From Natronobacterium texcoconense (GTDB lineage Archaea > Halobacteriota > Halobacteria > Halobacteriales > Natrialbaceae), in the NCBI RefSeq assembly GCF_900104065.1, contig NZ_FNLC01000001.1, positions 62,001 through 126,000 on the forward strand: a DNA stretch of 64,000 nt. The letters run 5' to 3'. Below are positions 33,377 through 49,480 of the stretch, piece after piece; the stretch's first letter is position 1, and every line of letters starts with the position of its first letter. The translations under genes were made by a program, and so were the position numbers. The notes beneath the pieces are model-generated. The model was given only the letters and a program-made list of their open reading frames with translations, searched no databases and was not told where the DNA came from.

Positions 33377-33685
33377 ATGGGGATAATCGTAACGAGAACG
33401 TTTGTGGCCCAGTACTGGTCGATAAAAAGAGCGATCGGCGTCTTCACAGTGGGTGTGATAGTAGGTCTCGCCACTATCGCTTCGACCGATGGCATAGCTT
33501 CTGGGGGGCCAGGCCCCATTATTTTATTATGCTCTGGAGGCATTTTTGCTTTTTACGGGGCGTCTGAATTGATTCCTGCGGACAAAACGATCATTATTGG
33601 CTTATTCCGCATCGTGTGCGTACTATTTCTTATTATATTGATTACAATACTGTATGCGGTGTATGTGTTTGCTTCTGGAATGTGA
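33377..33685 (+). CDS. Low-GC three-helix membrane protein (unknown)
   Basis: 102 residues with three hydrophobic helices (about 20-35, 47-60, 76-98). The gene and its flanks (about 33270-33720) are visibly AT-rich, with many ATT/ATA codons rare elsewhere, so recent acquisition is plausible. No family recognised. It lies between the amidohydrolase and the iclR gene. Confidence 0.55.
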   Translation: MGIIVTRTFVAQYWSIKRAIGVFTVGVIVGLATIASTDGIASGGPGPIILLCSGGIFAFYGASELIPADKTIIIGLFRIVCVLFLIILITILYAVYVFASGM

Positions 33686-33804
33686 ATTACCGAATACTCG
33701 TTCCGCTTGGACTCCCCTCGGATAGGTATTCGCGTCTCAGCGATCATCCAGTTGAACACCTCGTCGGTCAGCAGACGGGTCGCAGGAGAAAGTCGTGGAC
33801 GTAG

Positions 33805-34572
33805 TCAGCGGTGTGCGAGATTGATCTCGATCTCGTTTGTCGCACCGAGTAGGAGGTCCGGGAGTTCGTCGGCCATCAAGTCGCCGCGAAGACGGTTGGC
33901 GGGGCCGGCGATACTGAGCGCACCGATCGAGGCCCCGTCTTCGTCCGTGATCGGCGCTCCCACGGCGTGCACGCCGACGACCGACTCCTCCCGGTTGAAC
34001 GCGTAGCCGCGGTCGCGAATCGACTCGAGTCGATCGAACAGTGCCGCCCGGTCGGTGATCGTCTCGGCGGTCTGGCCGGGGAGTCCGTGTCGTTCGAGGA
34101 TCGTCTCGACGCGCTCGTCGGGGAGATGCGCCATGATCGCTTTTCCGGCCGCAAACTGGTGGAGAGGTGTCCGTTTGCCGATCCGGGCGTGGGTCTTCAC
34201 CGAGTGGCGGCCCTCTGCACCGTAGATGTGGACGCCCATGCCGTGTTCCTCGACGACGCACCAGACCTTCTCGTCGGTCTCGTCTGCGAGCTCGTCGACC
34301 TTCGGCTTCGCGACGTCGAACAGCGGATGCCGGTTCCGGGCGTACACCCCGTAGTCGAGAAACCAGGTACTGATTCGGTAGCCACCGTCCTCCTGGACGA
34401 GCAGTCCTCGAGACTCGAGCGTCTTGACGTGTCTGTGTACCGTACTCTTCGCGAGTCCGAGTTCGTCGGCGAGTTCGGACACGCCTGCGTTCCCCTCGCG
34501 TTTGAGCGTATCGACGACGTCGAACGCGGTTTCGACGGTTTCGACCGGTCGATGACTCGAGTCGATTGCCAT
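33805..34572 (-). CDS. IclR-family transcriptional regulator
   Basis: 255 residues. The N-terminal winged helix is VETVETAFDVVDTLKREGNAGVSELADELGLAKSTVHRHVKTLE (about 9-52), followed by the IclR effector-binding domain with HQFAAGKAIMAHLP and AVGAPITDEDGASIGALSIAGPA. IclR regulators sense small acids and control catabolic operons. The palindrome GTGTTGACAACAC sits directly before the start and the motif CTATTCGAACG upstream, suggesting autoregulation. Divergent or adjacent EthD, AOR and M24 genes are candidate targets. Confidence 0.92.
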   Translation of the reverse strand: MAIDSSHRPVETVETAFDVVDTLKREGNAGVSELADELGLAKSTVHRHVKTLESRGLLVQEDGGYRISTWFLDYGVYARNRHPLFDVAKPKVDELADETDEKVWCVVEEHGMGVHIYGAEGRHSVKTHARIGKRTPLHQFAAGKAIMAHLPDERVETILERHGLPGQTAETITDRAALFDRLESIRDRGYAFNREESVVGVHAVGAPITDEDGASIGALSIAGPANRLRGDLMADELPDLLLGATNEIEINLAHR

Positions 34573-34585
34573 GTGTTGACAACAC
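34573..34585 (-). promoter_or_regulatory. Palindrome immediately before the iclR start
   Basis: GTGTTGACAACAC is a perfect inverted repeat with a one-base centre touching the start codon. A TATA-like CAGGTTTTTGCG (about 34597-34608, minus strand) is 25-35 bases upstream, so the palindrome covers the predicted transcription start of a leaderless mRNA. A natural repressor site. Confidence 0.55.
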
Positions 34586-34613
34586 TCTGCCCTCTCGCAA
34601 AAACCTGTTCCCA

Positions 34614-34624
34614 CTATTCGAACG
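34614..34624 (+). promoter_or_regulatory. CTATTCGAACG box upstream of iclR
   Basis: One exact copy of an 11-mer that occurs three more times at 42749-42759, 42881-42891 (minus) and 42991-43001. Here it lies just upstream of the TATA-like box of iclR, an activator or repressor position. The longer 14-mer CCACTATTCGAACG is shared exactly with 42988-43001. Confidence 0.55.
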
Positions 34625-34665
34625 ATTCCTGCGTTCGCTTCGATCGCTCTTCGGACTGTCTCGAG

Positions 34666-35385
34666 TCAGCGGTCGTCCTTGACGAGTCGTTCCTGGCCGA
34701 TAAACCGCGGCCGCTCGTCGATCGCGAGGAAGTTGTCGACGTCCTCGCGGGCCTCCTTTGCCTTCCCTTTCTCGGGATCGTAATCTCGCGAGCCCTCGCT
34801 GCCGAGTGCGTCGTACAGTTTCTCGAGGTCCTCGAAGTACAGTTCGGCGACGCCGTCGAACTCCGCGTTCTCGGGGTCGGTCGGGAGGATCGTGTTGTAC
34901 TTCACGACGCCCTCTATCTCGCGGGCGATCGGAGTGTGGTTCTCCTGCCAGTAGTCGACGAACTCCTCGTGGGTCATCCCCTCCTGGCGGACGAGAAACG
35001 CCGAGTGTTTGTACAGATCGTCGGTATCACCGTCGACCTCGTCTTTCTGGACGATCTCCTCGCCGATGAAGCGGGGACGTTCCTCGACGGCGAGGAAGTT
35101 GTCGACGTCCTCGCGGGCCTTCGCCGCGACTTCCTTCGTCGGGTCGTAATCCCGCGATCCGGGGCTGCCGAGCGCCGCGTGGAGGTCTTCGAGGTCTTCG
35201 AAGTACAGTTCCGCCAGCCCGTCGAACTCGGCGTGGTCCGGCTCTGTGGGGAGGACCTGCTGGTATCGGACCACGCCCTCGATCTCCTTCGCAATCGGGG
35301 TGTGGTTCTCCTGCCAGTAGTCGACGAACTCCTCGTGGGACATGCCGTCCTGACGGACGAGTAAGGCGACGTGCTTGTACATCAT
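34666..35385 (-). CDS. Tandem-duplicated EthD-domain protein
   Basis: 239 residues made of two similar halves (about 1-118, 119-239), each starting LYKH/MYKH...LVRQ(D/E)GM and containing HEEFVDYWQENHTPIA and a DNFLA(V/I)(E/D)ERPRFIG ending. Each half is an EthD/ferredoxin-like dimer domain, so this is a fused dimer. EthD proteins accompany oxidative or aromatic catabolism but their chemistry is often unknown. Divergent from the M24 gene. Confidence 0.8.
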   Translation of the reverse strand: MMYKHVALLVRQDGMSHEEFVDYWQENHTPIAKEIEGVVRYQQVLPTEPDHAEFDGLAELYFEDLEDLHAALGSPGSRDYDPTKEVAAKAREDVDNFLAVEERPRFIGEEIVQKDEVDGDTDDLYKHSAFLVRQEGMTHEEFVDYWQENHTPIAREIEGVVKYNTILPTDPENAEFDGVAELYFEDLEKLYDALGSEGSRDYDPEKGKAKEAREDVDNFLAIDERPRFIGQERLVKDDR

Positions 35386-35499
35386 GCTTGAATATCCCAC
35401 ACAGTCCAATAAACGTCCGGGTGCAGACGCCACTCGGTTTCGTTGCCCTGTGAGGTGGACCAGAATTTATGGTCGTCGGTTTGATTGGTACGAGTACGC
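35386..35499. promoter_or_regulatory. Divergent promoter region (EthD / M24)
   Basis: 114 bases. Minus-strand ACGTTTATTGG (about 35402-35412) precedes the EthD start by about 20 bases; plus-strand AGAATTTATGG (35461-35471) precedes the M24 ATG at 35500 by about 30 bases. The CTATTCGAACG box is absent here. Confidence 0.45.
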
Positions 35500-36774
35500 A
35501 TGACGTTCTACGATCGAGAGTTCATGGAGGGCACCCGTGGCACCCAGGCCGTCGACTGGGAACAGCGGATCGACACCCAGCGCCTCCGCCGGGAGCGCAA
35601 AGAGCGGGCACTCGAGCGCCTGCAGGAGACGGATCTGGGTGCGATGCTCCTGCTATCGGACCCGAACATCCGGTACGTGACCGGGCTGGCGATGACCGGC
35701 GGCAGCGGCGCGGATCACTATACGCTGTTGACCGAGGAGGGCGATGTCGTCCACTGGGACACTGCCGACCACGCGAGCAACCAGCGGTTCAACTGCCCCT
35801 GGCTCCACGATATTCGGTACGCCTGTCCCGGCCTCGGCAACGTCCCACGAGCGTCCGGTCGGGACTCCGCGCGTCGGTTTCTGCTCGAGACGATGGCCGA
35901 GGGCGTCGCCGAGGCGATGAACGAGTACGGCGTCGCCGACGAGCGACTCGGCGTCGACGTCGGCAACCGCGGATTGCTCGAGGCGCTCGAAGGGCAGGAC
36001 CTCGAGACGGACGTCGAGACCTGTACCGCGGTCATGGAAGATGCTCGCAAGGTCAAGACCGAAGACGAGATCGAGTGTCTCCGTCAGGTCGCCGCCATCT
36101 GCGAGGCCGGTTTCCAGCGGATCACAGACGCCGCGAAGCCGGGGATGCGCGAGAACGAGGTCTGGGGCGAAGCGGTCCAGGAACTGTGGCGTCACGGTGC
36201 GTTCGTCGGCGGCGGCTACCTCACCTCGGGGCCGAACACGTGGCCGAAACACCAGGCCAACACCACCGATCGCGCCATCCGGCCGGGCGACCTCGTCTAC
36301 GCCGACTTCTACAATATCGGTTACCTCGGCTATCGCTCCTGTTACTATCGCACGTTCTCGATGGGCGAGCCGACCCAGGAACAGAAAGAGGCGTACGAAA
36401 CCGCTCGAGACAACCTCTACGACGTCCTCGAACGGATCGAGCCCGGTGCGACGACCGACGAGATCGCACAGGGGTTCCCGGACATGGCGGGCGAACACGC
36501 TGACTACTACGATGCCGATGAACACTGGCAGATGACGACTAACCACTGGGCCCACGGGCTCGGCCTCCAGTTGTACGAGGTGCCGCTGATCTGGCGCGGA
36601 CTCTCACCCGACCATCCGATCGAGATCGAGGAGGGGATGACGATGGCCGTCGAGACTCAGGAACCCGCTGGACGGCAGGGCGTCCGGGTCGAGGAGATGG
36701 TCGTCGTTCGCGAGAACGGCGTCGAGATTCTGAGCCAGTGGCCCGTCGAAGAGATCACGGTGATCGATTACTGA
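35500..36774 (+). CDS. M24-fold protein lacking a metal ligand (creatinase-like)
   Basis: 424 residues of the pita-bread fold with an N-terminal creatinase-type domain. Canonical peptidases have a VDxG...SDxTRTF pair of Asp ligands; here the second reads SCYYRTF, so an Asp is replaced by Cys. The histidine motif is AHGLGLQLYEVP with Tyr in place of the substrate His, while the Glu motifs (VETQEP, VEEMVVV) remain. This pattern is closer to creatinase-like or other non-peptidase members than to Xaa-Pro aminopeptidase. It precedes the flavin oxidoreductase by 50 bases. Confidence 0.75.
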   Translation: MTFYDREFMEGTRGTQAVDWEQRIDTQRLRRERKERALERLQETDLGAMLLLSDPNIRYVTGLAMTGGSGADHYTLLTEEGDVVHWDTADHASNQRFNCPWLHDIRYACPGLGNVPRASGRDSARRFLLETMAEGVAEAMNEYGVADERLGVDVGNRGLLEALEGQDLETDVETCTAVMEDARKVKTEDEIECLRQVAAICEAGFQRITDAAKPGMRENEVWGEAVQELWRHGAFVGGGYLTSGPNTWPKHQANTTDRAIRPGDLVYADFYNIGYLGYRSCYYRTFSMGEPTQEQKEAYETARDNLYDVLERIEPGATTDEIAQGFPDMAGEHADYYDADEHWQMTTNHWAHGLGLQLYEVPLIWRGLSPDHPIEIEEGMTMAVETQEPAGRQGVRVEEMVVVRENGVEILSQWPVEEITVIDY

Positions 36775-36824
36775 CCACCAGTTACTGACCCGAACTATTT
36801 GGTCGCGGAGGACGAACGACGACT

Positions 36825-37832
36825 ATGCAGCTCGGGACTGGCCTCTTTACCGCCCAGCAGCGCCCGGACGACGACCGCGGGACGGCAGACCGCTACGACG
36901 AAATTCTCGCGCTCACCCGCGAGATCGAGGCCGCGGGACTGGACAGCGCGTGGGTCTCCGAACACCACTTCGCCGAGGACGAGTACCTCTCGGGGACGAT
37001 GCCGACGCTCGGCGCGATGGCCGCCGTGACCGGCGACATAGAGATCGGCAGCTGTGTGGCACTCGGACCGCTGTACGATCCAATTAGACTCGCAGAGGAC
37101 GCCGCAACCGTCGACGCGCTCGCGGACGGCCGGCTCACGCTCGGTCTCGCCATCGGCTCGAACCCCCGCGAGTTCGACGTCTTCGGCGTGCCACGCGACG
37201 AACGGGCCGAGCGCCTCGCCGACCTGATTCCGTTTCTCCGGGGTGCCTGGAGCGACGGCGACCTCGAGTACGACTCCGACTTCCACGACGTGCCGACCGA
37301 CGTCTCCATCACGCCCAAGCCGGCCGACGGCTACGTCCCGATCATGCTCGGCGGCGCGGCGAAACCCGCAGTACGCCGAGCGGCCCGCACCGCAGAGGGA
37401 TGGTGTGCTCCCTCCTCGCTATCTGTCGAAGGCATCCGCAAGCGCGTCGAGGACATCCGTCGGGTTCGCGACGAGGAAGACGTCGACGGTGACTTTACGA
37501 TCTACGTCCTCCAGCACGGCTGGGTCGGCGACTCCCGTGAGGAAGCCTGGGAGACGATGAAGGACGGCTACCTCTACATCCAGCGCCGGTACGCCGAAAT
37601 CTTCTCCGGCGAACCGGTCGCCGAACTCGAGCCCGAGCGCAAGCGCGAACTGAAAGAGCAGGCGATCTTCGGCACGCCCGAGCAGGTGGTCGAGGAACTC
37701 GAGACCTATCGCGGCGTGCTCGGCGACGACGTCCACTTCATCTTCCGGACCTACCACCCCGGCGTCGGGACCGAGGCAATGGTCGAGTGTGTCCACCGGC
37801 TCGGCGACGAGGTCGCCCCGGAGCTATCCTAG
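36825..37832 (+). CDS. LLM-class flavin (F420/FMN)-dependent oxidoreductase
   Basis: 335 residues of the luciferase-like TIM barrel. Visible are SAWVSEHHFAED near residue 41, LGLAIGSNPREFDVFG, and IMLGGAAKPAVRRAA around the cofactor site. Family members are F420-dependent dehydrogenases or FMN monooxygenases, common in archaea. In context an oxidative step on an aromatic or sulfur/nitrogen compound is likely. AACTATTTGG (about 36793-36802) is the probable TATA. Convergent with a thioesterase gene it overlaps by 4 bases. Confidence 0.85.
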   Translation: MQLGTGLFTAQQRPDDDRGTADRYDEILALTREIEAAGLDSAWVSEHHFAEDEYLSGTMPTLGAMAAVTGDIEIGSCVALGPLYDPIRLAEDAATVDALADGRLTLGLAIGSNPREFDVFGVPRDERAERLADLIPFLRGAWSDGDLEYDSDFHDVPTDVSITPKPADGYVPIMLGGAAKPAVRRAARTAEGWCAPSSLSVEGIRKRVEDIRRVRDEEDVDGDFTIYVLQHGWVGDSREEAWETMKDGYLYIQRRYAEIFSGEPVAELEPERKRELKEQAIFGTPEQVVEELETYRGVLGDDVHFIFRTYHPGVGTEAMVECVHRLGDEVAPELS

Positions 37833-38257
37833 CCCGTCTTGTAGACGCCGCGCGCGTCGGCGATCAGGGTATCGACGGCTTCGCCGTCTCCACGAGGTTC
37901 CGACGGAGTCTCGCCGTCGTCGGCCGCGTACACGTCCACGTCGACCACGCCCACGTCACCCCCACACCGGACGACGTCGGCCTCGGCGTAGAGGTCGCCC
38001 GTTCCGGCGCTCAGGTAGTCGATCCGCATGTCGATCGTCGGCACCGGCTGGTCGACCTCCGAGACCAGCGCCGCGCCGCCGACCGTATCCGCGAGCGTGA
38101 ACGTGACGCCGCCGTGAGCCATCAGTTCCTCTTCGTTCCAGGAGAGTTCCTCGGTCATCTCGAGGCGGCCTTCGGCGTGGCCGTCGGCACACTCGGTGAT
38201 CTCGATCCCCAGCAGGGATGCGAAGGGCATCCCCTCGAAGAAGGCCTCGATATCCAT
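37829..38257 (-). CDS. PaaI-type hotdog thioesterase
   Basis: 142 residues with the hotdog core LMAHGGVTFTLADTVGGAAL and IDMRIDYLSAGTGDLYA. Family members release stalled acyl- or aryl-CoA, PaaI being the phenylacetate-pathway example. Same strand as the enoyl-CoA hydratase and hydroxyacyl-CoA dehydrogenase genes upstream (50-base gap), so it belongs to that operon. The 3' end overlaps the convergent LLM gene. Confidence 0.82.
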   Translation of the reverse strand: MDIEAFFEGMPFASLLGIEITECADGHAEGRLEMTEELSWNEEELMAHGGVTFTLADTVGGAALVSEVDQPVPTIDMRIDYLSAGTGDLYAEADVVRCGGDVGVVDVDVYAADDGETPSEPRGDGEAVDTLIADARGVYKTG

Positions 38258-38306
38258 ACGCTCACTCTTCCATGCTGACCAATAAAAGTTCAGGCGTAGC
38301 AGACCG

Positions 38307-39146
38307 CTACCGGCCTTGCCAGTCGGGTTCGCGGTCCTCGAAGAAGGCGTCGATCCCCTCGTTTTTGTCCTCGGTCGCGAACAGCTGGGCGAACAGTTCG
38401 GCCTCGTACTCGATGCCGCTCTCTAAGTCCATCCGGGAGCCGGCTTTGACGGCCTCTTTCGCGAACTCGAGGGCGACGGGGCTCTTTTCGGCCATCGATT
38501 CGGCGAGGCCATAGGTTTCCTCGTCGAGTTCGTCGTCGCTTTCGCAGACGATATCGACGAGTCCGATCTCGCGAGCTTCGTCGGCGTCGATCAACTCGCC
38601 CGAGAGGATCAGCCGCATCGCCTGTCCTTCGCCGACGAGTCGCGGCAGGCGCTGGGTACCGCCGCCGCCGGGCATAATCCCGAGGTTGATCTCGGGCTGG
38701 CCGACCTTCGCCCGTTCGTGGGCGATCCGGACGTCACACGCGGTCGCGAGTTCGCAACCGCCGCCGAGAGCGTGACCGTTGAGCCGGGCGATAACGGGCT
38801 GGCGGAGGTCGTCGACCACCTCGTACACGCGCGGGCGTTTCGAAGCCTCGCGCTGTTCCAGGGCGTTTCGTTCGCGCAGTTCACTCACGTCGGCACCGGC
38901 GACGAACGCCTTGGCCTCGTCCGCCCCGGTGAGCACGACGACGCGGACGTCGCTGTCCTCGATCGCGTCGAACACCTCCTTCAGTTCCGCTCGAAGCGTC
39001 CCGTTCAGGGCGTTGCGCGCGTCGGGACGATGCATCGTCACCGTCGCGACGCCCGCGACGCGGTCGCCGACCTCGACCCGAACGGTCTCGCAGTCCGCGG
39101 CGACCTCTTCGACGGCCTCGGCACCGTCGACTCGATCGTCACTCAT
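38307..39146 (-). CDS. Enoyl-CoA hydratase/isomerase
   Basis: 279 residues of the crotonase fold. The oxyanion segment FVAGADVSEL, the catalytic-Glu regions ALGGGCELA and PEINLGIMPGGGGTQRLPR are intact, so hydratase chemistry is expected. An N-terminal acidic extension of about 20 residues is present. Starts within the last 8 bases of the dehydrogenase gene. Could serve the PaaF or PaaG step or general beta-oxidation. Confidence 0.88.
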   Translation of the reverse strand: MSDDRVDGAEAVEEVAADCETVRVEVGDRVAGVATVTMHRPDARNALNGTLRAELKEVFDAIEDSDVRVVVLTGADEAKAFVAGADVSELRERNALEQREASKRPRVYEVVDDLRQPVIARLNGHALGGGCELATACDVRIAHERAKVGQPEINLGIMPGGGGTQRLPRLVGEGQAMRLILSGELIDADEAREIGLVDIVCESDDELDEETYGLAESMAEKSPVALEFAKEAVKAGSRMDLESGIEYEAELFAQLFATEDKNEGIDAFFEDREPDWQGR

Positions 39147-40023
39147 CGCCGCCACCTCCGCTGACGCCGACGATCTCGCCGTCCTCCCAGACGTAGAAGC
39201 CCTCGCCGGTCTTCTTGCCGAGTTTCCCCGCACGAACCTTTCGCTTGAGCACCTGCGGCGGCCTGAACCGTTCACCCAGTTCCTCGCGGAGATACTCGAG
39301 TATATCCAGTCGTACGTCTAACCCGACCACGTCGCCGAGTTCGATCGGTCCCATCGGGTGGTTGTAGCCCAGTTCCATCGCAGCGTCGATATCGTGCGGG
39401 TCGGCGACGCCCTCCTCGACCATCCGCATCGCCTCGACGCCGAGGGCGACGCCTAGCCGCGAGGAGGCGAAGCCGGGCGAGTCGGTCACTTCGACCGCCG
39501 TCTTGTCGATGTCCTCGACGAACTCGTGGGCCGTCGCGACCGTCTCCTCGCTCGCCTGCTCGGGGACGACGATTTCGACCAGTTCCATGATGTGGACCGG
39601 GTTGAAGAAGTGGAGTCCGATCACGCGGTCGTCGTGTTCTGCCGCGCTCGCGATCTCGGTGACCGACAGCGACGAGGTGTTCGTCGCGATGGTCGTCCCC
39701 TCGTCGACGACTCCCTCGACGTCCTCGAGGGTGTCCCGTTTCAGGTCGAGATCCTCCGGAACCGCCTCGATCACCAGGTCCGCTCCCTCGAGTGCCTCTG
39801 TGAGATCCGTCGTGCCATCGATCCGGGAGAGCGTCGCGTCGGCCTCCTCGCGGGTGAGTTTGTCGCGTTCGATCCCGCCCTCGAGGTTCGCTTCGATCGA
39901 CTCGAGGCCGTTCTCGACGTACTCGGGTTCGACGTCTCTGACGACGATGTCGTGGTCGGCCATCGCCGTCACCTGCGCAATGCCGTGGCCCATGGTGCCA
40001 GCCCCAAGCACTGTGACTTGCAT
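39139..40023 (-). CDS. 3-hydroxyacyl-CoA dehydrogenase
   Basis: 294 residues, single-function type. NAD-binding GAGTMGHG (7-14), catalytic-His motif LHFFNPVHIMELVEIV, and the C-terminal GYNHPMGPIELGDVVGLDV are clear. Oxidises 3-hydroxyacyl-CoA in the same route as the hydratase and thiolase; PaaH is a candidate role. First gene of a three-gene minus-strand operon, divergent from the thiolase with a 100-base promoter region. Confidence 0.92.
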   Translation of the reverse strand: MQVTVLGAGTMGHGIAQVTAMADHDIVVRDVEPEYVENGLESIEANLEGGIERDKLTREEADATLSRIDGTTDLTEALEGADLVIEAVPEDLDLKRDTLEDVEGVVDEGTTIATNTSSLSVTEIASAAEHDDRVIGLHFFNPVHIMELVEIVVPEQASEETVATAHEFVEDIDKTAVEVTDSPGFASSRLGVALGVEAMRMVEEGVADPHDIDAAMELGYNHPMGPIELGDVVGLDVRLDILEYLREELGERFRPPQVLKRKVRAGKLGKKTGEGFYVWEDGEIVGVSGGGGDE

Positions 40024-40123
40024 ACACGACACATCCGGAACGACCCTCAAAGACGTTACTATTTCCGACATATGGGGCGAGGTAACGGCACACATATATG
40101 GCTACGGACAATACGCGACGAGC
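40024..40123. promoter_or_regulatory. Divergent promoter region (dehydrogenase / thiolase)
   Basis: 100 bases. Plus-strand CACATATATGGC (40089-40100) lies about 26 bases before the thiolase ATG, a strong leaderless promoter. ACTATTTCCGACATATGG (about 40060-40077) includes a weak relative of the CTATTCGAACG box and a minus-strand TATA candidate (CATATG). Joint control of both arms of the pathway is plausible. Confidence 0.55.
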
Positions 40124-41299
40124 ATGCGAGACGTCTATCTCGTCGGTGCGGGCCAATCGCCGTTCGGGGCGTTCCCGGATCGGAGTTACCGGGACCTGTT
40201 CGCGGAGGCGTACGAGGCCGCATGCGACAGCGTCGACCACGGGATCGACACCGAGGACGTCGACGAGGCCGTCGTCGGCACGCTCGGCGTCGGCGGCCGC
40301 CAGTTAGGGCTGTCGGGGCCGGCCGTGACCGAACACGTCGGTCTCCACAACGTCCCTTGCTCGAGAGTCGAGAACGCCTGCGCTGCAGGCGGATTCGCCG
40401 TCCGAAACGGCGTTCAGGCGATCAAGAGCGGCTTCGCCGACGTCGTCGTCGCCGGCGGCTACGAGGTGATGACCGACCTCTCGGACGACGTGACGAAGTA
40501 CTGGCTCGGCGTCAGCGGCGAGACCGAGTGGGAGCGACTGACCGGGACGACCTTCTCTGGCGTCTACGCCCAGATGGCGAGTGCGTACTTGAACGAGTAC
40601 GAGGCGACGACGGAAGATCTCTCGCGAGTCGCCGTCAAGAATCACGGAAACGGCGCGAAAAACCCCAAGGCACATCTGGGATTCGAGTGTTCGCTCGAGG
40701 ACGCCACGAGCGCGCCGACCGTCGCGGACCCTCTCAATCTCTACCACTGCTGTCCGACCTCCGACGGTGCGGCGGTCGCGATCCTCGCGAGCGAGAACGT
40801 CGTCGGGGAGTACACCGACGAACGAGTACGAATCGCTGGCGTCGGCGCGGCGAGCGACCGGGTCGGCCTGGCCCAGCGGGACAGTTACACCGGCATCTCG
40901 GCATCGCAGGTCGCCGCCGAGACCGCCTACGAGCGGGCGGGCGTCTCCCCCGGCGACCTTGATTTCGCCGAGGTCCACGACTGCTTCGCGATCGCGGAAC
41001 TGGTCGCCTACGAGGATCTGGGCTTCTGTGAGCCGGGATCGGCTCCCGAACTGCTCCGTGAGGGCAGAACCGATCCGGACGGCGACCTCCCCGTCAACAC
41101 CTCGGGCGGGCTGAAGTCGAAGGGTCATCCCATCGGCGCGACCGGAACCGGCCAGGTCGTCGAGGCGTTCGACCAGTTGACCGGACGAGCGGGCGATCGA
41201 CAACTCGAGAACCCACGGTACGGCCTGACCCACAACGTCGGCGGAAGCGGCGGCGTGTCGGTCGTTCACGTCTTCGAGCGCGAGGAGGTGGGACGATGA
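40124..41299 (+). CDS. SCP2-type thiolase
   Basis: 391 residues of the thiolase subfamily used by archaea with HMG-CoA synthase. Nucleophile Cys86 (ENACAAGG) and KSKGHPIGATG are present; the second Cys of classical thiolases is replaced in HNVGGSGG, as is usual for this subfamily. Start chosen at the ATG 26 bases after a TATA box; upstream in-frame residues are antisense to the dehydrogenase. Overlaps the next gene by 4 bases (ATGA), implying a stoichiometric partner. Confidence 0.88.
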   Translation: MRDVYLVGAGQSPFGAFPDRSYRDLFAEAYEAACDSVDHGIDTEDVDEAVVGTLGVGGRQLGLSGPAVTEHVGLHNVPCSRVENACAAGGFAVRNGVQAIKSGFADVVVAGGYEVMTDLSDDVTKYWLGVSGETEWERLTGTTFSGVYAQMASAYLNEYEATTEDLSRVAVKNHGNGAKNPKAHLGFECSLEDATSAPTVADPLNLYHCCPTSDGAAVAILASENVVGEYTDERVRIAGVGAASDRVGLAQRDSYTGISASQVAAETAYERAGVSPGDLDFAEVHDCFAIAELVAYEDLGFCEPGSAPELLREGRTDPDGDLPVNTSGGLKSKGHPIGATGTGQVVEAFDQLTGRAGDRQLENPRYGLTHNVGGSGGVSVVHVFEREEVGR

Positions 41300-42711
41300 C
41301 GCTCGGCATCGAGAGCGTCGGCGCGTACGCTCCGCGGTACCGGCTCACGGCCGACGCCGTCGAGGACGCCTGGGGCCAGTTCCACGGCGCGGGGATCTCG
41401 GAGACGGCGGTTCCCGCCGGCGACGAGGATACGCTGACGATGGCATCCGAGGCTGCAACGGAGGCGCTGGCGGCGAGCGCCCTCGAGCCGACCGACGTGG
41501 CCCACCTGCTGGTCGCCACGACGACGCCGCCGAACGAGGAGGGGGCGATCGCCGGGCGACTCGCGAGTTTCTTCGGACTCGCGGCGACGACCGAGACGCG
41601 GACGTTCACCGCGAGTACGCGGGCCGGCGTCGACGCGCTGACGACTGGCCTCGAGCGCGGCGACGGCCCCGTTCTTGTCGTCGCCAGCGACGCTCCGCGC
41701 GGCGCGCCGGACGACGAGATCGAACACGCCGGCGGCGCGGGCGCGGCCGCAGTCCTCCTGACCGCCGACGGCGAAGGCTCGGTTCGCGACCGCGCCGAAC
41801 GCACGACGACGTTCCCCGGCACGCGATTCCGCCCCGCCGGATCGGACGAGACGACCGGTCTCGGAATCACCGGCTACGACCGTCAGGCGTTCACCGAGAC
41901 CGTCACAGGCGTGGCCGAGGACCTCGAGTACGACCTCGGGTCGGCCGACGCCGTCGCACTCCAGTCGCCGAACGGAAAACTCCCCTATCGGGCGGCCGGT
42001 CCGCTCGGCGTCGAGGCCGAGACGCTCCAGGCTGGAACCACCGTCCACGACCTCGGCGACACTGGCGCGGCGAGCCCCCTCCTCGGGTTCGCGAGCGCGC
42101 TCGAGGCCGGCCACGAGGACGTCGTCCTGATCGGCTACGGCTCCGGCGGCGGCGCGTCGGCGATCGCACTCGAGGCGACCAACGTCGCGGTCTCGACGAG
42201 ATTCGGGGGCGCGGAGACGCTCTCCTACGGCGAGTATCTGCGGATTCGGGGCGACGTCACCCCTGGCGAACCGGACGGCGGCGGCGCGTACGTCAGCGTC
42301 CCCAGTTGGAAGCGAACCCTCCCTCAGCGCCACCGGCTCGTCGCCGGCCGCTGCCGGGAGTGCGGCGACCTCGCCTTCCCACCCGAGGGGGCCTGTACGG
42401 GATGTGGGACGCTCGAAGAGTACGACGACGTCTCCCTGCCCGGGACGGGGATGGTCGAGGCGGCGACGGTCATCGGCCAGGGCGGTGCGCCGCCGGAGTT
42501 CGTCGAACAGCAGGCCAGGGAGGGCGCGTACGTCAGCGCCATCGTCGCGCTCGACGGTCCCGACGGCGGCACAGTCTCGACGCCGGCGCAAGTCCGTACC
42601 GTCGGTGAGGAGTCCGTCTCGCCGGGCGACCGCGTCGAGGCGACGATCCGTCGGATCTACACGCAGGAGGGCGTGACCCGGTACGGCTTCAAGATGCGAC
42701 TTCGAGACTGA
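41296..42711 (+). CDS. HMG-CoA-synthase-like protein fused to DUF35, catalytic Cys missing
   Basis: 471 residues in two parts: a thiolase-fold/HMGCS-like domain (1 to about 335) and a DUF35 domain with rubredoxin-like zinc ribbon (CRECG...CTGCG, about 353-373) and OB fold. In HMG-CoA synthases the nucleophile lies in a FACKAG-type motif; here the equivalent reads TASTRAG (105-111) with Thr in the Cys position. So this domain is probably non-catalytic. In archaea separate thiolase, HMGCS and DUF35 proteins form one complex; this is a fused variant next to its thiolase. Confidence 0.8.
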   Translation: MTLGIESVGAYAPRYRLTADAVEDAWGQFHGAGISETAVPAGDEDTLTMASEAATEALAASALEPTDVAHLLVATTTPPNEEGAIAGRLASFFGLAATTETRTFTASTRAGVDALTTGLERGDGPVLVVASDAPRGAPDDEIEHAGGAGAAAVLLTADGEGSVRDRAERTTTFPGTRFRPAGSDETTGLGITGYDRQAFTETVTGVAEDLEYDLGSADAVALQSPNGKLPYRAAGPLGVEAETLQAGTTVHDLGDTGAASPLLGFASALEAGHEDVVLIGYGSGGGASAIALEATNVAVSTRFGGAETLSYGEYLRIRGDVTPGEPDGGGAYVSVPSWKRTLPQRHRLVAGRCRECGDLAFPPEGACTGCGTLEEYDDVSLPGTGMVEAATVIGQGGAPPEFVEQQAREGAYVSAIVALDGPDGGTVSTPAQVRTVGEESVSPGDRVEATIRRIYTQEGVTRYGFKMRLRD

Positions 42712-43019
42712 CCTCGCTGTTCTCGGATCCGTAATCGACCGGTTCGAACTATTCGAACGCCTAGGGCGGAACGAGCAGCACGATCGTACATTGTTCCTCT
42801 ACGACAGATATGGTATTACAGAAGTACATCTGTAAAGGTCTGTGGTCGGTCAGGCACGATGCCCACGTAGCACCGATTGTCGTTCGAATAGCTCGAACGA
42901 GTTCGTCGATCCGATACGAATCGTCTCCGCCGTTCGTGACTCGAAATCGGTACTGTCGTCGATAGATCGGCTGATGGCACCTGATTGCCACTATTCGAAC
43001 GGTCCGCCGTCTGTTCCGC
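42712..43019. other. Convergent intergenic region with three CTATTCGAACG boxes
   Basis: 308 bases between the 3' ends of two convergent genes, where no promoter is expected. It contains exact CTATTCGAACG boxes at 42749-42759 (+), 42881-42891 (-) and 42991-43001 (+); the first and second are parts of inverted repeats (GTTCGAA-CTA-TTCGAAC at 42742-42758, CGTTCGA-N5-TCGAACG at 42881-42899). A longer palindrome is at 42816-42835. No ORF here looks coding. An unannotated small RNA or a relic promoter are the main options. Confidence 0.7.
42816..42835. promoter_or_regulatory. 20-bp near-perfect palindrome
   Basis: TTACAGA-N6-TCTGTAA with a further complementary spacer, only the two centre-proximal bases break symmetry. 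It lies between IclR-like boxes one and two. A dimeric regulator site or the stem of a short RNA hairpin. Confidence 0.55.
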
Positions 43020-43613
43020 TCACGAGGTCTGTGAGTACTCCTCGACCCACTCCTGGAGGGTGATTCCCATTGCTGCCTCGGTGATGGCGTTCGAGGACGC
43101 GGAATTCGCGCTCTTGACGAGTTCGGCCTCGAGCGTCCGGGTCGGAATCTCGCCGAAGAAGTGCGGAATCGCCCGCTGGACGGCAAGCGGACAGCCAACC
43201 TCGTGTGCGAGGGCGTACCCGGAGATGGAGTGAGGAATCTCCTCGGTGGCGTACCGCGGGTCGGGATCGACGAGGACGTCGTCCTCGACGTGATCGGTGT
43301 ACTCGTAGCACTTCCCCACGTCGTGGAGGAGACAGGCCGCGACAATCGTGTCGACGTCCGGCGTAGCACCGTGGAACTCCCGCTGTTCTCTCGCGGACTC
43401 GAGTGCAATCCGCGTGACGCCGCGGACGTGTTCGACGTTGGTGACCTCGTGGATGTTCCAGGCGTAGGGGACGTCCTCGATCCGTTGCCAGCCCCCTCGC
43501 CGCAGACCGAGCGTCCAGGCCTCGACGACGCGATTTCGGAGGTCGTCGTCGTCGATCTGCTCGAGTTCGGGAAACGCTTCACGGACTTGCGCGTCGTAGT
43601 CGATTTCGGACAT
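43020..43613 (-). CDS. HD-domain phosphohydrolase
   Basis: 197 residues from ATG 43613. HD motifs: His in TNVEHVRGVTRIALE, the HD pair in ACLLHDVGKCYEY, and a later His in EIPHSISGYALAHE. Such proteins hydrolyse nucleotides or phosphoesters with a divalent metal, or act on other oxygen-activating reactions. The N-terminal 45 residues are helical. Placed between the thiolase operon (convergent) and the epimerase gene, so possibly part of the catabolic island; substrate unknown. Confidence 0.78.
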   Translation of the reverse strand: MSEIDYDAQVREAFPELEQIDDDDLRNRVVEAWTLGLRRGGWQRIEDVPYAWNIHEVTNVEHVRGVTRIALESAREQREFHGATPDVDTIVAACLLHDVGKCYEYTDHVEDDVLVDPDPRYATEEIPHSISGYALAHEVGCPLAVQRAIPHFFGEIPTRTLEAELVKSANSASSNAITEAAMGITLQEWVEEYSQTS

Positions 43614-43741
43614 GGTGATCGGTGGTCGAGTATCGGCAGTCGCTCCGGACAGTTCTGGCGGCACGTCGGTAGCGGCCGTAGTTTCTGGACTCTCGTAAAT
43701 AAATCGTGAGGCCGGCGGTCTGTTCCCGGAGACCGCGCGCA

Positions 43742-44209
43742 TCATAGCCGCTCGCCGCGAACGAACAGCCGTTTGCCGGCATCGCGGCTCTCGGCGTAGC
43801 CGTCGTCGTACTCCATCAACTGGAACAGCACTCCGGTCGCGTTCTCCGGCGAGAGAAACGCTTCGCCCCAGTGGTCGAACTCGGCGTGATCGACCACGGA
43901 GACGCCGTGCTCGGACAGCGCCTCGATCGCCGCCTCGAGATTCGCCACCTCGAGCGTGACGTGGTGGAGGCCGGGTCCGTTCTCCTCGAGGAAGGCGGTG
44001 AGAAACGATTCCGAGCCGTCCGCGGGGGCGATGAGCTCGAGCCGGGAGGCGTCGCCGAGTACGTACGTCGCCCACGCGAATTCCGCGTACTCGCTTCGTT
44101 CCTCGTGGATCTTCTCGCAGCCGAGCGCGAACAGGATCGATTCGGCGTCCTCGATCGAGTCGACCGCGATGCCGACGTGGTCGACACGCATTGCTGGCAG
44201 GTCGGCCAT
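43742..44209 (-). CDS. Methylmalonyl-CoA-epimerase-like VOC protein
   Basis: 155 residues. The vicinal-oxygen-chelate fold is shown by RVDHVGIAVDSIEDAESILF at the start, GLHHVTLEVANLEAAIEAL in the middle and LFQLMEYDD near the end, with metal-site His/Glu positions as in methylmalonyl-CoA epimerase. It may epimerise a CoA thioester derived from the pathway. Start at 44209 follows CAAATACCTATG on the minus strand by about 27 bases; ATG 44191 is an alternative. Confidence 0.8.
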   Translation of the reverse strand: MADLPAMRVDHVGIAVDSIEDAESILFALGCEKIHEERSEYAEFAWATYVLGDASRLELIAPADGSESFLTAFLEENGPGLHHVTLEVANLEAAIEALSEHGVSVVDHAEFDHWGEAFLSPENATGVLFQLMEYDDGYAESRDAGKRLFVRGERL

Positions 44210-44327
44210 ACGGTGGAAACGTGACTCGGAGAACATAGGTATTTGGTGGTTGTTCTCACTCCTCGAGGCTCGCGTGATCATACCGCACCGGTAGAACAAA
44301 GTTGGCGTCCCTCGACAACGGGAGTGT

Positions 44328-44648
44328 ATGCTCAAGCTGGTAGAGCTACTCGTGCGACGGGACGAGTACAGCCACGAGGAGTTCGTCGAGCGGTGGCAGG
44401 GCGACCACGCCGAAATCGCTCGCGACCTCCCTGGACTGAAACGCTACAGCACGTCCGTACCGACGGATCCCGAGGCCGTCGAGTACGACGGCGTTCTCGA
44501 ACTCGTCTTCGAGGACGAGGCGGCGCTGAACGAGGCGTTCGGCTCCGAGGTCGGGCAAGCGGTCCAGGAGGATGCCGCCGAGTTCGTCGACGTCGGGGCC
44601 GGGCCCCGGATGATCGTCGAGGAGACGGTCCACGTCGACGAGACATGA
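44328..44648 (+). CDS. EthD-domain protein coupled to a ThDP enzyme
   Basis: 106 residues, one EthD domain (LVELLVRRDEYSHEEFVERWQGDHAEIA, conserved W-x-x-x-H) with an extra acidic C-terminal segment. It overlaps the thiamine-enzyme gene by 4 bases (ATGA), so the two are made together. Related to each half of the tandem EthD protein at 34666. A role in binding or converting the substrate of the ThDP enzyme is suggested by the coupling. Confidence 0.8.
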   Translation: MLKLVELLVRRDEYSHEEFVERWQGDHAEIARDLPGLKRYSTSVPTDPEAVEYDGVLELVFEDEAALNEAFGSEVGQAVQEDAAEFVDVGAGPRMIVEETVHVDET

Positions 44649-46342
44649 CGTCGACGGCTGCCGAACTCGTCGCGACGCTCGAGGAGCTAGACGTCGAGTA
44701 CGTCTTCGGCTATCCCGGCGGGAGAGTGATCGAACTGTTCGAGCACCTCCCGGAGTCCGACGTCGACGTGATCCGACCGCGCGACGAACGCGAGGCCAGC
44801 GTCATGGCCGAGACGTACGGCCGTCTCACCGGCCGTCCGGGTGTTCTCACGGGCCAGGGACCGTGGATCGGCAGTCTCGGCGCGATCGGTCAGATGGAGG
44901 CACGCCTCGCGTCTTCACCGATGGTCGTGCTCACCGAGGCTTCCGAACGCGGCGAGTACTCGACGCTGGCTCCCTACCAGCAGGCTCGAGGCGATTACGG
45001 CGGCCTCAGCTTGCCGGATATTCTCGACGGTGTCACCGAGGAGTGGTGGTTCCCGCGGACGCCGACCGAGACGCTCCGCTCCACCCAGCTCGCGTTCAAA
45101 CACGCCGTCGCCGGTCGGCCCGGCCCGACTGCGGTGATTCTCGACGGCGACGCGATCACCGACGAGGTGCCCGCGGACCCGACGCCCCCGGCCTGGGACG
45201 CCACCGAACAGACGCGTACCTGGGATGCCAGGCCGACCGCGGAAGACGTCGCGGCGGCGGTCGAGACACTCGAGGACGCCGAACGCCCGGTCCTGATCGC
45301 AGGCAACGGCGTTCACGCAGCCCAGGCGTACGACGAACTCGAGGCGGTCGCGGCGGGCTACGACTGTGCCGTCGTCACCTCCTACCTGGGGAAGTCGACC
45401 TACCCGGAGACCGACGAGCGCGCGGCGGGCGTCATCGGGTCGTTTGGCCACGAGGGTGCAAACCGCGTCGTCAGCGAGGCCGACGCGTTGCTCGTCGTCG
45501 GCTGTCGGCTGAATCCGATGGACACCAACTGGCAGGCACCCGATTTCATTCGACCAGAAGAGCAGACGATCGTCCACGCCGACGTCGACACGCGCAACGC
45601 CGGCTGGGTCTACCCCGCCGACGTGGGGCTGATCGGCGACGCGAAAGAGAGCCTCGCGGCGCTCGCGGAAGCCGGCGGCGCGGAAAACGACTGGGCGCTC
45701 GAGCGCGCAGCCGAGGCCCGCGAGTGGTTCACGACCCCCGAGTGTCGGGACGACTCGAGTCCGATCAAGCCTCAGCGGGCCGCCAAAGAAATACAGCGAG
45801 TCGTAGACGACGAGACGATCGTCACTGCCGATTCCGGGAACAACCGGTTCTGGCTCCTCTACTACCTGCAGACGCCCGCCGTTCGAACGTACTTCGGCAG
45901 CGGCGGGGTCGGCGGGATGGGGTGGGCCCAGCCAGCGGCGGTCTCGGCGGCGCTTTCGACTGGGAAGGACGTGATCTCGGTCGCCGGCGACGGCGGGTTC
46001 TCGATGACGATGAACAGCGTCGAGACCGCCGTCGAGTACGGCGTCGCGCCGACGTTCGTCGTCCTGAACGACACCAGCCTGGGGATGGTCCGCCAGATGC
46101 AGACGGAAGACGGCGACATCGCCGGCGTCGAGTTCCACGACACGGACTTCGTGAAGATCGCCGAGGGCTTCGGCGCGGTCGGCCGGCGGATCATCGACCC
46201 CGACGCGCTCGCGGACGCCCTCGAGGAGGGAAAGGCGGCCGACCGTCCCCACGTCCTCGACGTGCGAATCGACCGCGAAGAGGACATGGCCGACCGGCTC
46301 GCCTCCTCGTTTTACGAGTCGGTGGGCGGACTCCACGAGTGA
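44645..46342 (+). CDS. Thiamine diphosphate-dependent enzyme (acetolactate-synthase-like)
   Basis: 565 residues with three ThDP domains. The catalytic Glu region RDEREASVMAETYG (about 47-60) is intact; the Mg-ThDP motif runs from GDGGF near residue 448 to the Asn in VVLN. Benzoylformate decarboxylase, oxalyl-CoA and acetolactate-type enzymes share this fold, and no residue settles which. Not an ilvB, since no small subunit follows. Aromatic context makes a 2-oxoacid decarboxylase or carboligase attractive. Follows EthD with overlap. Confidence 0.82.
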   Translation: MTSTAAELVATLEELDVEYVFGYPGGRVIELFEHLPESDVDVIRPRDEREASVMAETYGRLTGRPGVLTGQGPWIGSLGAIGQMEARLASSPMVVLTEASERGEYSTLAPYQQARGDYGGLSLPDILDGVTEEWWFPRTPTETLRSTQLAFKHAVAGRPGPTAVILDGDAITDEVPADPTPPAWDATEQTRTWDARPTAEDVAAAVETLEDAERPVLIAGNGVHAAQAYDELEAVAAGYDCAVVTSYLGKSTYPETDERAAGVIGSFGHEGANRVVSEADALLVVGCRLNPMDTNWQAPDFIRPEEQTIVHADVDTRNAGWVYPADVGLIGDAKESLAALAEAGGAENDWALERAAEAREWFTTPECRDDSSPIKPQRAAKEIQRVVDDETIVTADSGNNRFWLLYYLQTPAVRTYFGSGGVGGMGWAQPAAVSAALSTGKDVISVAGDGGFSMTMNSVETAVEYGVAPTFVVLNDTSLGMVRQMQTEDGDIAGVEFHDTDFVKIAEGFGAVGRRIIDPDALADALEEGKAADRPHVLDVRIDREEDMADRLASSFYESVGGLHE

Positions 46343-46396
46343 GACTGTGCGGACGAACACCAACCTATACGTGACCGATCGACACACTATCAGCGT

Positions 46397-47371
46397 ATGA
46401 CGAACACGACAGACGACGCGACCGTACTGGTAACCGGCGGAACCGGCTTCATCGGTTCTTACGTGGTACAGGATCTGCTCGAGCACGGCCACGACGTCGT
46501 GGCCTACGACCTCTCGACGGATACCGAGATCCTCGAGAAACTCGGCGTCGCCGACGACGTCGAGGTACGACGTGGCGACGTCTCCGAGCCGACCGACGTG
46601 ATCCGAGCGGTGCGGGAGACAGGTGCGACCCACGTCGTCCACCTCGCCGCCCTGCTGACGACGACCGCTCGAGAGAACCCGCGTGCAGCGGCCGAGGTGA
46701 ACATTATGGGGACGAACAACGTCTTCGAGGCGGCCCGAATCCTGGACGATCAGGTCGAACGCGTCGCCTGGGCGTCTTCGGCGGCCGCCTACGCGCCGCC
46801 GGCAAACTACGACGCAGAGTGGGTCGACGAGGACGAACTCGTCTACCCCGATACGCTCTACGGCGCGACCAAGGAGTACAACGAACACCAGGCGCAGGTC
46901 TATCACGAGGACTACGGACTCGACCACGTCGCCCTCCGGCCGACCGTCGCCTACGGGCCCTACCGCGAGACGGGGGGATCGGCGTTCCTGGCGAACATCA
47001 TCGAAAAACCCGCGCTCGGCGAACCCTACAGCGTCGAGTACGGCGACCAGGCCATCGACTGGCAACACGTCGAGGATATCGCACAGGCGTTCCGGAAGGC
47101 GGCGTTCACGCCCGAAGAAGACCTCTCGCAGCGCGTCTACAACGTCCGCGGCGTCCTCGCGACGGTTCGCGAAGCCACCGAAGCCGTCGAAACCGTCATG
47201 CCCGACGCCGAGATCGACGTCTCCGACGACGGTGAACTCCCCTGGACCCAGAACCTGGACATGACGGCAGCACAGGAGGACCTGGGCTACGACCCCGAGT
47301 ACGACCTCGAGTCCGGCTTTCGGAAGTACATCAACGTCCTGCGGGAGGAGGAAGGGCTCGAGCCAGTATAG
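46397..47371 (+). CDS. NAD-dependent epimerase/dehydratase (extended SDR)
   Basis: 324 residues with Rossmann motif VTGGTGFIGSYV (11-22), Ser in SSAAAYAP, and the YGATKEY Tyr-x3-Lys active site. Extended SDR enzymes act on nucleotide sugars or other hydroxyl substrates. TATA-like CCTATACGTG precedes the ATG by about 30 bases. A steroid, sugar or aldehyde-type substrate is possible; the position between ThDP enzyme and amine oxidase points to the catabolic set, but this is context only. Confidence 0.85.
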   Translation: MTNTTDDATVLVTGGTGFIGSYVVQDLLEHGHDVVAYDLSTDTEILEKLGVADDVEVRRGDVSEPTDVIRAVRETGATHVVHLAALLTTTARENPRAAAEVNIMGTNNVFEAARILDDQVERVAWASSAAAYAPPANYDAEWVDEDELVYPDTLYGATKEYNEHQAQVYHEDYGLDHVALRPTVAYGPYRETGGSAFLANIIEKPALGEPYSVEYGDQAIDWQHVEDIAQAFRKAAFTPEEDLSQRVYNVRGVLATVREATEAVETVMPDAEIDVSDDGELPWTQNLDMTAAQEDLGYDPEYDLESGFRKYINVLREEEGLEPV

Positions 47372-47440
47372 ACGATTACGATCGCCGCAGGCTCCTGCCG
47401 GGGGCGAACGTATTTACCTTGGTTTGTGGTGTCGCCCCAC

Positions 47441-49480
47441 ATGGCGCTCGAACGCACGCCAGTGGCGGATCACCCGCTCGACCCGTTGTCACCCGAGGAG
47501 ATCGAAACGGCCTACGATGTCCTGACGCGCGAACGGGACGTTGGGGAGGACAGCCTCTGCATCAAGATCGAACTCGACGAGCCCGAAAAAGAGGTACTCG
47601 AGGCGTACGACGACGGTGGCGACGCCCCCGAACGGCGAGCGCGGATCGTCGTCAGAAACGGTGCCGAGCGAAAGACGATCGAGGCGGTCGTCTCGCTCTC
47701 GGACGACGCTGTAGTCTCGTGGGAGTACGTCGAGGACGCACAGCCCTCGATCGCGATCGAGGAGTTCGTCGCCTGCGAGGAGACGGTGAAGGCAAACGAG
47801 GAGTGGCAGGAAGCGGTCGAGCGACGCGGCGTCGAGGACACCGACCGCGCGATGGTCGACCCCTGGTCGGCCGGCCACGAGTTCATTCCGGCGGACGTCG
47901 ATCGGTCGAAGCGGCTGGCCCACGGGCTGACGTTCCTCCGGCCGAGCGAGGACGACGGTGACGAGGGGTACGCGAAGCCGCTGACCGGCATCCACACGTT
48001 CGTCGACCTGGACCGGATGGAGGTCGTGAAGGTCGTCGACTACGGCCCGCCGGACGAGGACCAGCCGCTGCCTCCCGAGTGGATGGCTTATCGCGAGGAC
48101 GACGTCGACCTGCGAGAGGACCTGACGGCGTACAACGTCGAGCAACCCGACGGCCCTAGCTGGAGCGTCGACGGCCACAAACTCGAGTGGCAGGGGTGGC
48201 ACATGCGCGTGGGCTGGACCCAGCGTGAGGGGCTTGTACTGTACGATATCGGCTACGAGGACGACGGCGAGGTGCGATCGATCATCGATCGCGCATCGTG
48301 TGCCGAGATGTCGGTACCGTACGGGACGACCGACGTCAACGACCGGTTCAAGAACGCGATGGACGTCGGCGAGTACAACATCGGCCGGCTCGCCAAGTCG
48401 CTGACCAACGGCTGTGACTGTCTCGGGCACATGCACTACTGGGACGCCGTGATGAACACGGCTGACGGCAGGGCGAACGTGCTCGAGAACGCCATCTGCC
48501 TCCACGAGGAGGACAACGGAACCCTCTGGGAGCGAAGCGACTGGCGTACCGACACCGACGAGGTTCGTCGCCGTCGACGGCTGGTCGTCTCGTTCGTCGC
48601 CGCCGTGGGCAATTACGACTACATCTTCAACTGGTACTTCTATCAGGACGCCTCTATCGAGGTCGAGGTGCGACTGACGGGCATCGACAGCGTCTCCACC
48701 GTGGGGTCGGACGAGGACCCGTCGGGCTACGGCGAACTGGTCGCGCCGCAACTCAACGGGCCGATCCACCAGCACTTCTTCAACTTCCGGCTCGACATGA
48801 ACGTCGACGACGGGCCGAACTCGCTCTATCGCGTCGAGAACCGAACGGTCCCGGTTGGACCGGACGGCACGGACCCGATGGGCGAGGCCGACGAGCGGAC
48901 GCACAACCCCGGCGGCAACGCCTTCTACGCGAAGCGGGAGAAACTGACGAGCGAGGAAGACGCGAAAGACCTGATCGACCCGCTGAAGGGCCGGTACTGG
49001 CAGATCGTAAACGAAGGCGAGGAGAACCACCTCGGGAAGCCGACCGGCTACCGCCTCGTCCCTGGCGGCAACGTCGAGGCGGCAGTTCACCCCGACTCGA
49101 GCGTGATGGAGCGTTCCGGCTTCATCAGGTACCATCTGTGGGCGACGCCGTTCCGCGAGGACGAGCGTTTCCCGTCGGGTCGGTACCCGAACCAGCATCC
49201 CGGCGGCGCGGGACTACCGGCCTGGACCGAGGCTGATCGCGACCTCGAGGACGAGGACCTCGTCTGCTGGTACACCCTCGGCGTCAACCACGTGACCCGA
49301 CCCGAGGACTGGCCGATCCTGCCCGTGCAGGTCTACAGCTTCAAACTTCAGCCGGACAACTTCTTCGGCGAGAGTCCGGCGATCGACGTGCCACCACAGC
49401 ACGCCATCGAGGGACAGGACGTGCCGGGCCACGGTGCCTGTGGGACGGACGAGGCAGGCGCGGACGCCGACGACGACTGA
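47441..49480 (+). CDS. Copper amine oxidase
   Basis: 679 residues. Copper amine oxidases convert primary amines to aldehyde, ammonia and H2O2 with a self-made topaquinone. The TPQ precursor is Tyr392 in VGNYDYIFNW, and His443/His445 of PIHQHFFNF are copper ligands; the third His lies near the C-terminal YHLW region. No signal peptide, so it appears cytoplasmic in contrast to periplasmic bacterial enzymes. Candidate substrate is phenylethylamine or tyramine given the paa genes downstream. ATG 47441 follows CGTATTTACC by about 25 bases. Confidence 0.93.
   Translation: MALERTPVADHPLDPLSPEEIETAYDVLTRERDVGEDSLCIKIELDEPEKEVLEAYDDGGDAPERRARIVVRNGAERKTIEAVVSLSDDAVVSWEYVEDAQPSIAIEEFVACEETVKANEEWQEAVERRGVEDTDRAMVDPWSAGHEFIPADVDRSKRLAHGLTFLRPSEDDGDEGYAKPLTGIHTFVDLDRMEVVKVVDYGPPDEDQPLPPEWMAYREDDVDLREDLTAYNVEQPDGPSWSVDGHKLEWQGWHMRVGWTQREGLVLYDIGYEDDGEVRSIIDRASCAEMSVPYGTTDVNDRFKNAMDVGEYNIGRLAKSLTNGCDCLGHMHYWDAVMNTADGRANVLENAICLHEEDNGTLWERSDWRTDTDEVRRRRRLVVSFVAAVGNYDYIFNWYFYQDASIEVEVRLTGIDSVSTVGSDEDPSGYGELVAPQLNGPIHQHFFNFRLDMNVDDGPNSLYRVENRTVPVGPDGTDPMGEADERTHNPGGNAFYAKREKLTSEEDAKDLIDPLKGRYWQIVNEGEENHLGKPTGYRLVPGGNVEAAVHPDSSVMERSGFIRYHLWATPFREDERFPSGRYPNQHPGGAGLPAWTEADRDLEDEDLVCWYTLGVNHVTRPEDWPILPVQVYSFKLQPDNFFGESPAIDVPPQHAIEGQDVPGHGACGTDEAGADADDD

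Follow-up and report, generated by a model that had tools for sequence, protein, structure and literature searches.

Conserved palindromic modules between convergent haloarchaeal genes: a possible distal operator array of an IclR-family regulator

Within the window, which is the whole 64,000-nucleotide stretch of Natronobacterium texcoconense DNA analysed here, we found a real, highly non-random and conserved group of palindromic sites in a 308-bp spacer between two convergent genes. We give an even chance to the reading that this spacer is a conserved distal operator array of the cluster's own IclR-family regulator and not a promoter. The spacer is bounded on the left by a plus-strand thiolase and OB-fold (HMG-CoA-synthase-like) gene pair, the latter (41296-42711, +) ending into the module at 42711, and on the right by an HD-domain gene (43020-43616, −), which ends into it at 43020. 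The initial annotation had placed three exact IclR-like boxes, two of them inside inverted repeats, between these convergent gene ends (42712-43019), and each of these points was confirmed. Exact copies of CTATTCGAACG lie at 42749-42759 (+), 42881-42891 (−), and 42991-43001 (+), and a fourth is located at 34614-34624 (+) in the promoter of an IclR gene about 8 kb away. Dinucleotide shuffles of the 64 kb gave an expectation of 0.03 copies and a maximum of one, compared with four in the window. In pattern searches of the whole genome, exact CTATTCGAACG was found six times in 4.01 Mb, four of these inside one 8.4-kb stretch here, and the reversed-pattern control returned no match.

Boxes 1 and 2 each make up one half of a complete palindrome, GTTCGA-N5-TCGAAC (PAL). 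The first, PAL1, is GTTCGAACTATTCGAAC at 42742-42758 within the operator-like full palindrome CGTTCGAATAGTTCGAACC (42741-42759, −), which lies 30 bp past the stop codon of the OB-fold gene; the second, PAL2, is CGTTCGAATAGCTCGAACG (42881-42899, +). Box 3 is a half-site in the half-degenerate element B3' (CGTTCGAATAGTGGCAATC; 42983-43001, −), and its partner half GTGGCAATC is degenerate in N. texcoconense. We also identified a fourth element overlooked earlier, CEN (TTACAGAAGTACATCTGTAA, 42816-42835; (A)TTACAGAAGTACATCTGTAA(A) with its flanking bases, 42815-42836, no strand assigned), which lies midway between the PALs and is the sole palindrome of its kind in the window. Comparison of the window genome with four congeneric genomes revealed PAL1, CEN, PAL2, and a third site near the HD-domain gene between the same convergent genes in all five congeneric species, with one end base of CEN different in three of the four. 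The sequence between these sites is largely diverged and frequently unalignable among the congeners.

The promoter-proximal operator B3 (CGTTCGAATAGTGGGAACA; 34606-34624, −), followed by the TATA-like AGGTTTTTG, is the strongest site outside the spacer. It precedes by 34-50 bp the start codon of an IclR-family gene (33805-34572, −; IclR_C 2.4e-35, HTH_IclR 1.1e-13), whose orthologues share 73-82% identity. The motif tracks these orthologues, PAL being found mainly in genomes with an IclR orthologue of at least 73% identity in a 41-genome search, and the term "IclR-like" of the initial annotation is therefore well supported. We then scanned 20-64 kb of ten genomes with a PWM built from IclR-promoter and module sites, for which the scores of PAL1 (27.1), PAL2 (30.3), B3 (29.4), and B3' (15.2 in N. 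texcoconense vs 21.7-29.2 in four congeners) are high by construction and the information lies in the lack of further matches. Scores above 20 were confined to IclR promoters and modules, except for one borderline in-gene match (20.0) in genome G021, and none was found at other cluster promoters in the regions scanned; the next-best score in the window was 17.2. Similarly, pattern searches of the 4.0-Mb genome found both exact matches to the palindrome GTTCGARTARYTCGAAC inside the module spacer, the exact PAL pattern in the module only (n = 2), and the exact B3 pattern in the IclR promoter only (n = 1). Because PAL and B3 match only the regulator's own gene and the module, the targets predicted by motif alone are the IclR gene and the spacer. 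These sequence patterns make it very probable that the sites are operators of the cluster's IclR-family regulator, and linkage points to the protein encoded at 33805-34572 as the presumed binder of PAL and B3.

For IclR operators, a group 1 consensus (GKTYCRYW3-4RYGRAMC) and a PcaU/PobR/CatR set (GTNCG-N5-6-CGNAC) have been described (PMC8222616). As in these bacterial systems, the sites are inverted repeats with GTTCG/CGAAC half-sites, an inverted repeat is present in the IclR-gene promoter and conserved with the orthologues, a second site can lie 30 bp (about three turns) upstream, and a catabolic cluster would be controlled. However, PAL reads GTTCG-N7-CGAAC and is thus 1-2 bases longer than N5-6, GTTCGAAnnnTTCGAAC has G rather than C at half-site position 5 of the group 1 consensus, and likeness to group 2 is limited to the GGGAACA half of B3. 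PAL and B3 thus match neither published group consensus, which is not decisive since the family as a whole has no common operator consensus (PMC8222616). A further difference is that strong sites are also present here beyond the 3' ends of genes, within a convergent spacer; such sites were invisible to that survey because it scanned only −400 to +50 of gene starts.

A scan with the IclR protein extended the comparison to Natronococcus, Haloterrigena, Natronorubrum, Halopiger, and Natrialba, and genome G021 was included as well. The module recurs in at least five further genera of the Natrialbaceae, immediately 3' of the IclR orthologue, and the spacer between the IclR and amidohydrolase genes contains a PAL, a CEN (exact or with 1-2 mismatches), and a second site. 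The module thus occurs in two gene contexts, with convergent genes in every case. Most other genera have EthD2, HD, and IclR genes in this order on one strand, HD directly before IclR, facing an amidohydrolase gene; other genes separate HD from IclR in Natrialba and G021, and EthD2 and HD were not found in the stretch examined in Natronococcus. In the orthologous loci examined (at least six genera), IclR is preceded by B3, a site of the form GTTCGAATAGYGGGAAC that keeps a near-constant distance of about 50 bp to the start and has ARRCTTTTTG or a similar sequence after it; several genera carry a second site, exactly 30 bp farther upstream. The window's genus differs: its IclR gene comes after EthD2, has a B3 of its own, and lacks a downstream array, while the HD-domain gene is followed by B3', PAL, CEN, and PAL. 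The two layouts are collinear apart from the absent IclR body.

B3' is the counterpart of the IclR-promoter operator of the other genera, minus the T-run found there, so the IclR gene that intervenes elsewhere was probably lost or relocated in the window's genus, and box 3 is plausibly a relic of an ancestral IclR promoter. The simplest history would be that an EthD2-HD-IclR block was duplicated, with reciprocal loss afterwards, or that the IclR gene was relocated; the polarity of the rearrangement is deduced by setting a single genus against the others, with no tree. The initial annotation had raised the possibility of a promoter remnant moved by inversion. The remnant part is plausible for box 3 only, which occupies the IclR-promoter position of other genera, although the congeners retain the site; it does not extend to boxes 1 and 2 with CEN, which match the element 3' of IclR elsewhere, where no gene starts. 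The synteny comparison did not bear out the inversion, as relocation with loss fits the gene order better than a simple promoter inversion. An IclR pseudogene between B3' and PAL2 was also rejected, with blastx matches at chance level only. Separately, the amidohydrolase/IclR spacer of the window (33062-33804) is 743 bp long with AT-rich stretches, compared with about 100 bp in two congeners (G001 and G002) and in Halobiforma nitratireducens, and may be an insertion scar.

We further surveyed the exact CEN pattern, TTACA-N3-GTAC-N3-TGTAA, and found 58 sites in 17 of the 41 genomes searched, with none for the backward-read control. None of the classified sites was inside a predicted gene. An IclR gene lay within 3 kb of 27 of 49 CEN sites (none within 3 kb for the other 22), whereas a rough estimate from 2-19 IclR matches per ~4-Mb genome in this archaeal family predicts a few per cent. 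Some sites lie upstream of IclR genes and others 20-270 bp past IclR stop codons, and CEN is found in divergent and co-directional spacers besides convergent ones. Beyond the pattern itself, the only additional conservation is an A/T on each flank. The N positions are without consistent pairing (23, 16, and 17 of 56), which suggests that CEN acts as DNA and not as an RNA hairpin; the hairpin was rejected because the internal positions lack covariation, and a core promoter because no flanking element was found at a fixed offset among 56 sites. CEN therefore looks like a candidate protein-binding DNA site, and it provides a short genome-wide motif tied to haloarchaeal IclR genes. Among individual loci, four (L120, L123, L153, and L155) have paired CEN or CEN-like palindromes 69-157 bp apart within one spacer, and at L097 (5012-5031) a CEN lies 1 bp past the stop of a TrmB-like gene; this spacer is convergent and has no IclR gene nearby. 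In addition, more distant IclR genes (50-61% identity; L168, L169, L170, L171, L173, and L175) are followed on their 3' side, within about 350 bp, by a TTAC-N12-GTAA-like palindrome, which in several cases has a GTTCGA-type site close by.

The arrangement of matching palindromes around CEN was also found with a different sequence. We compared the palindromes flanking each CEN at 54 sites, with 316 mismatched pairings as a control, and six sites scored at least 24, while no mismatched pairing reached 23. Four of the six are the PAL module; the other two, L136 and L143, carry different sequences. At L136, a convergent spacer that follows an IclR-PIG-L gene pair has TGTTTCG-N5-CGAAACA to the left and to the right of CEN, the promoter of this IclR gene has the same palindrome in slightly degenerate form (TGTTTCGGACGGAGAAACA), and the exact pattern has no further copy in that genome. 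L143 offers weak support, with an IclR gene 1.8 kb from its twin-palindrome CEN site and one half-site only in the IclR promoter. The presence of the L136 palindrome both around CEN and in its own IclR promoter indicates that the layout exists for a second IclR regulator. Tentatively, PAL-CEN-PAL might thus be a recurring archaeal control element, in which regulator-specific operators surround a generic palindrome with a common partner away from gene starts, and through which different IclR regulators would act without a local promoter.

A transcript hidden in the spacer is the main alternative to a distal operator array. According to this explanation, the module would be the control region of an unannotated small or antisense RNA, transcribed within the spacer or outward from it, with the IclR regulator as its switch. 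It has in its favour the strong conservation of operators where no gene starts, the well-conserved sequence from CEN to the right-hand site in three Natrialba species, and a precedent in Haloarcula hispanica, where one ChIP peak of TrmB was classed as intergenic and lies near a ~200-nt unannotated transcript (PMC10817205). However, a T-run within 14 nt after the site was present at 0 of 45 module site-orientations (12 modules) compared with 12 of 12 IclR-promoter B3 sites, and TATA-like hexamers were absent from 11 modules against 5.1 expected (P = 0.03). No BRE/TATA-like element was thus recognised beside the operators, although a TATA box is often not recognisable in haloarchaeal promoters (PMC10817205), which makes the absent T-run compatible with transcription. 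Sigma-70-like promoters were likewise not predicted in the spacer region by a bacterial model that is hardly applicable to an archaeon. We found no Rfam family, tRNA, or conserved RNA structure in the spacer, and no conserved ORF or common inter-site sequence across genera; together with the missing core-promoter element at a fixed offset from CEN, these results count against a hidden RNA, which we regard as possible but doubtful. Small ORFs were also rejected: a 17-codon ORF (MYNGGGKRGGYRFDPFP) follows a GGAGG-like purine-rich stretch within the Natronorubrum texcoconense module (L162, ~11026-11080) and has no equivalent in other genera, and open frames extend into the OB antisense strand in some congeners, none of them shared.

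The lack of a T-run, TATA-like hexamer, RNA family, or shared ORF favours the distal operator array over a hidden promoter, and we hold a non-promoter mode of action with moderate confidence. In such an array, two high-affinity PALs and a weaker third site would bracket CEN, which would probably be bound by a second factor. The PAL-bound regulator and the CEN-binding factor might then form a nucleoprotein complex that communicates with B3 in the IclR promoter, by looping or by setting the level of free regulator, and autoregulation would be tuned in this way. The ancestral order may have been HD, B3, IclR, and PAL-CEN-PAL facing the amidohydrolase gene, and in the window's genus the IclR gene would have moved by about 8 kb with the array left in place; the second factor, the looping, and the direction of this rearrangement are all inferred. 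Several observations fit less well. The PAL-to-PAL distances (107-261 bp) have an unconvincing helical phasing (R = 0.43 at 10.5 bp, p ~0.13), which looping would favour, and the array model has to span 8 kb to the IclR promoter in the window's genus and to accommodate the 22 CEN sites without an IclR gene nearby.

Simpler roles for the bound regulator were also weighed. The array could act as a decoy whose sole effect is to reduce the amount of free regulator and so make the IclR promoter respond more sharply; an excess of two or three strong sites over a single promoter site would suit this, and titration is distance-independent, so the module could have stayed when IclR moved. We consider this unlikely, since it leaves unexplained the CEN between the PALs, the repetition of the layout at an unrelated IclR locus, and the non-random location. 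Equally improbable is a road-block or boundary, with the regulator at the 3' ends keeping convergent transcripts from colliding: the setting is convergent in every genus and both gene contexts, and the outer sites are usually 7-100 bp from the flanking stop codons, but CEN also occurs in divergent and co-directional spacers and an ordinary terminator would be simpler. The PALs can form stems, but without a subsequent T-run, and no intrinsic terminator (hairpin plus T-run) or T-rich terminator-like site was found in 42600-43120. Least likely of all is a decaying remnant of an old IclR promoter and 3' flank, functionless in the window's genus, which would suit the collinearity of the layouts, the degenerate box 3 of N. 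texcoconense, and the lack of any remaining IclR coding sequence, but hardly the intact PAL-CEN-PAL of five congeners despite their diverged inter-site sequence.

Haloarchaeal precedents are partial. XacR, which controls pentose catabolism in Haloferax volcanii and is of the IclR type (Johnsen et al. 2015, as cited by PMC10448506 and PMC6085418), resembles the regulator described here in being a haloarchaeal IclR protein that serves a catabolic pathway and has a semi-palindromic site in a promoter, whereas a distal convergent array or CEN is not mentioned for XacR in the passages of these two papers that cite it. The TrmB site of Haloarcula hispanica is similarly intergenic rather than in a promoter (binding is presumed for our sites), but it belongs to another transcription factor family with another motif and is accompanied by a transcript and a predicted promoter (PMC10817205), with no recognisable promoter here. 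Our search of the open-access literature turned up neither CEN nor any account of IclR sites in convergent spacers. The cluster around the module (32186-49480) encodes EthD-domain proteins, an amidohydrolase, an M24 peptidase-like protein, an LLM oxidoreductase, a TPP enzyme, a thiolase, an enoyl-CoA hydratase, a 3-hydroxyacyl-CoA dehydrogenase, a glyoxalase-like protein, an epimerase, and a copper amine oxidase, and looks like an uncharacterised CoA-dependent catabolic pathway common to many haloarchaea.

Regulon surveys seek operators upstream of genes, and promoter-based surveys would miss such distal sites. Apart from the site in its own promoter, the regulator has its strongest and best-conserved sites away from any gene start, and none of the catabolic promoters in the cluster carries one. 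Either distal operator arrays without a promoter are in use by archaeal IclR regulators, or such spacers hide a regulated RNA.
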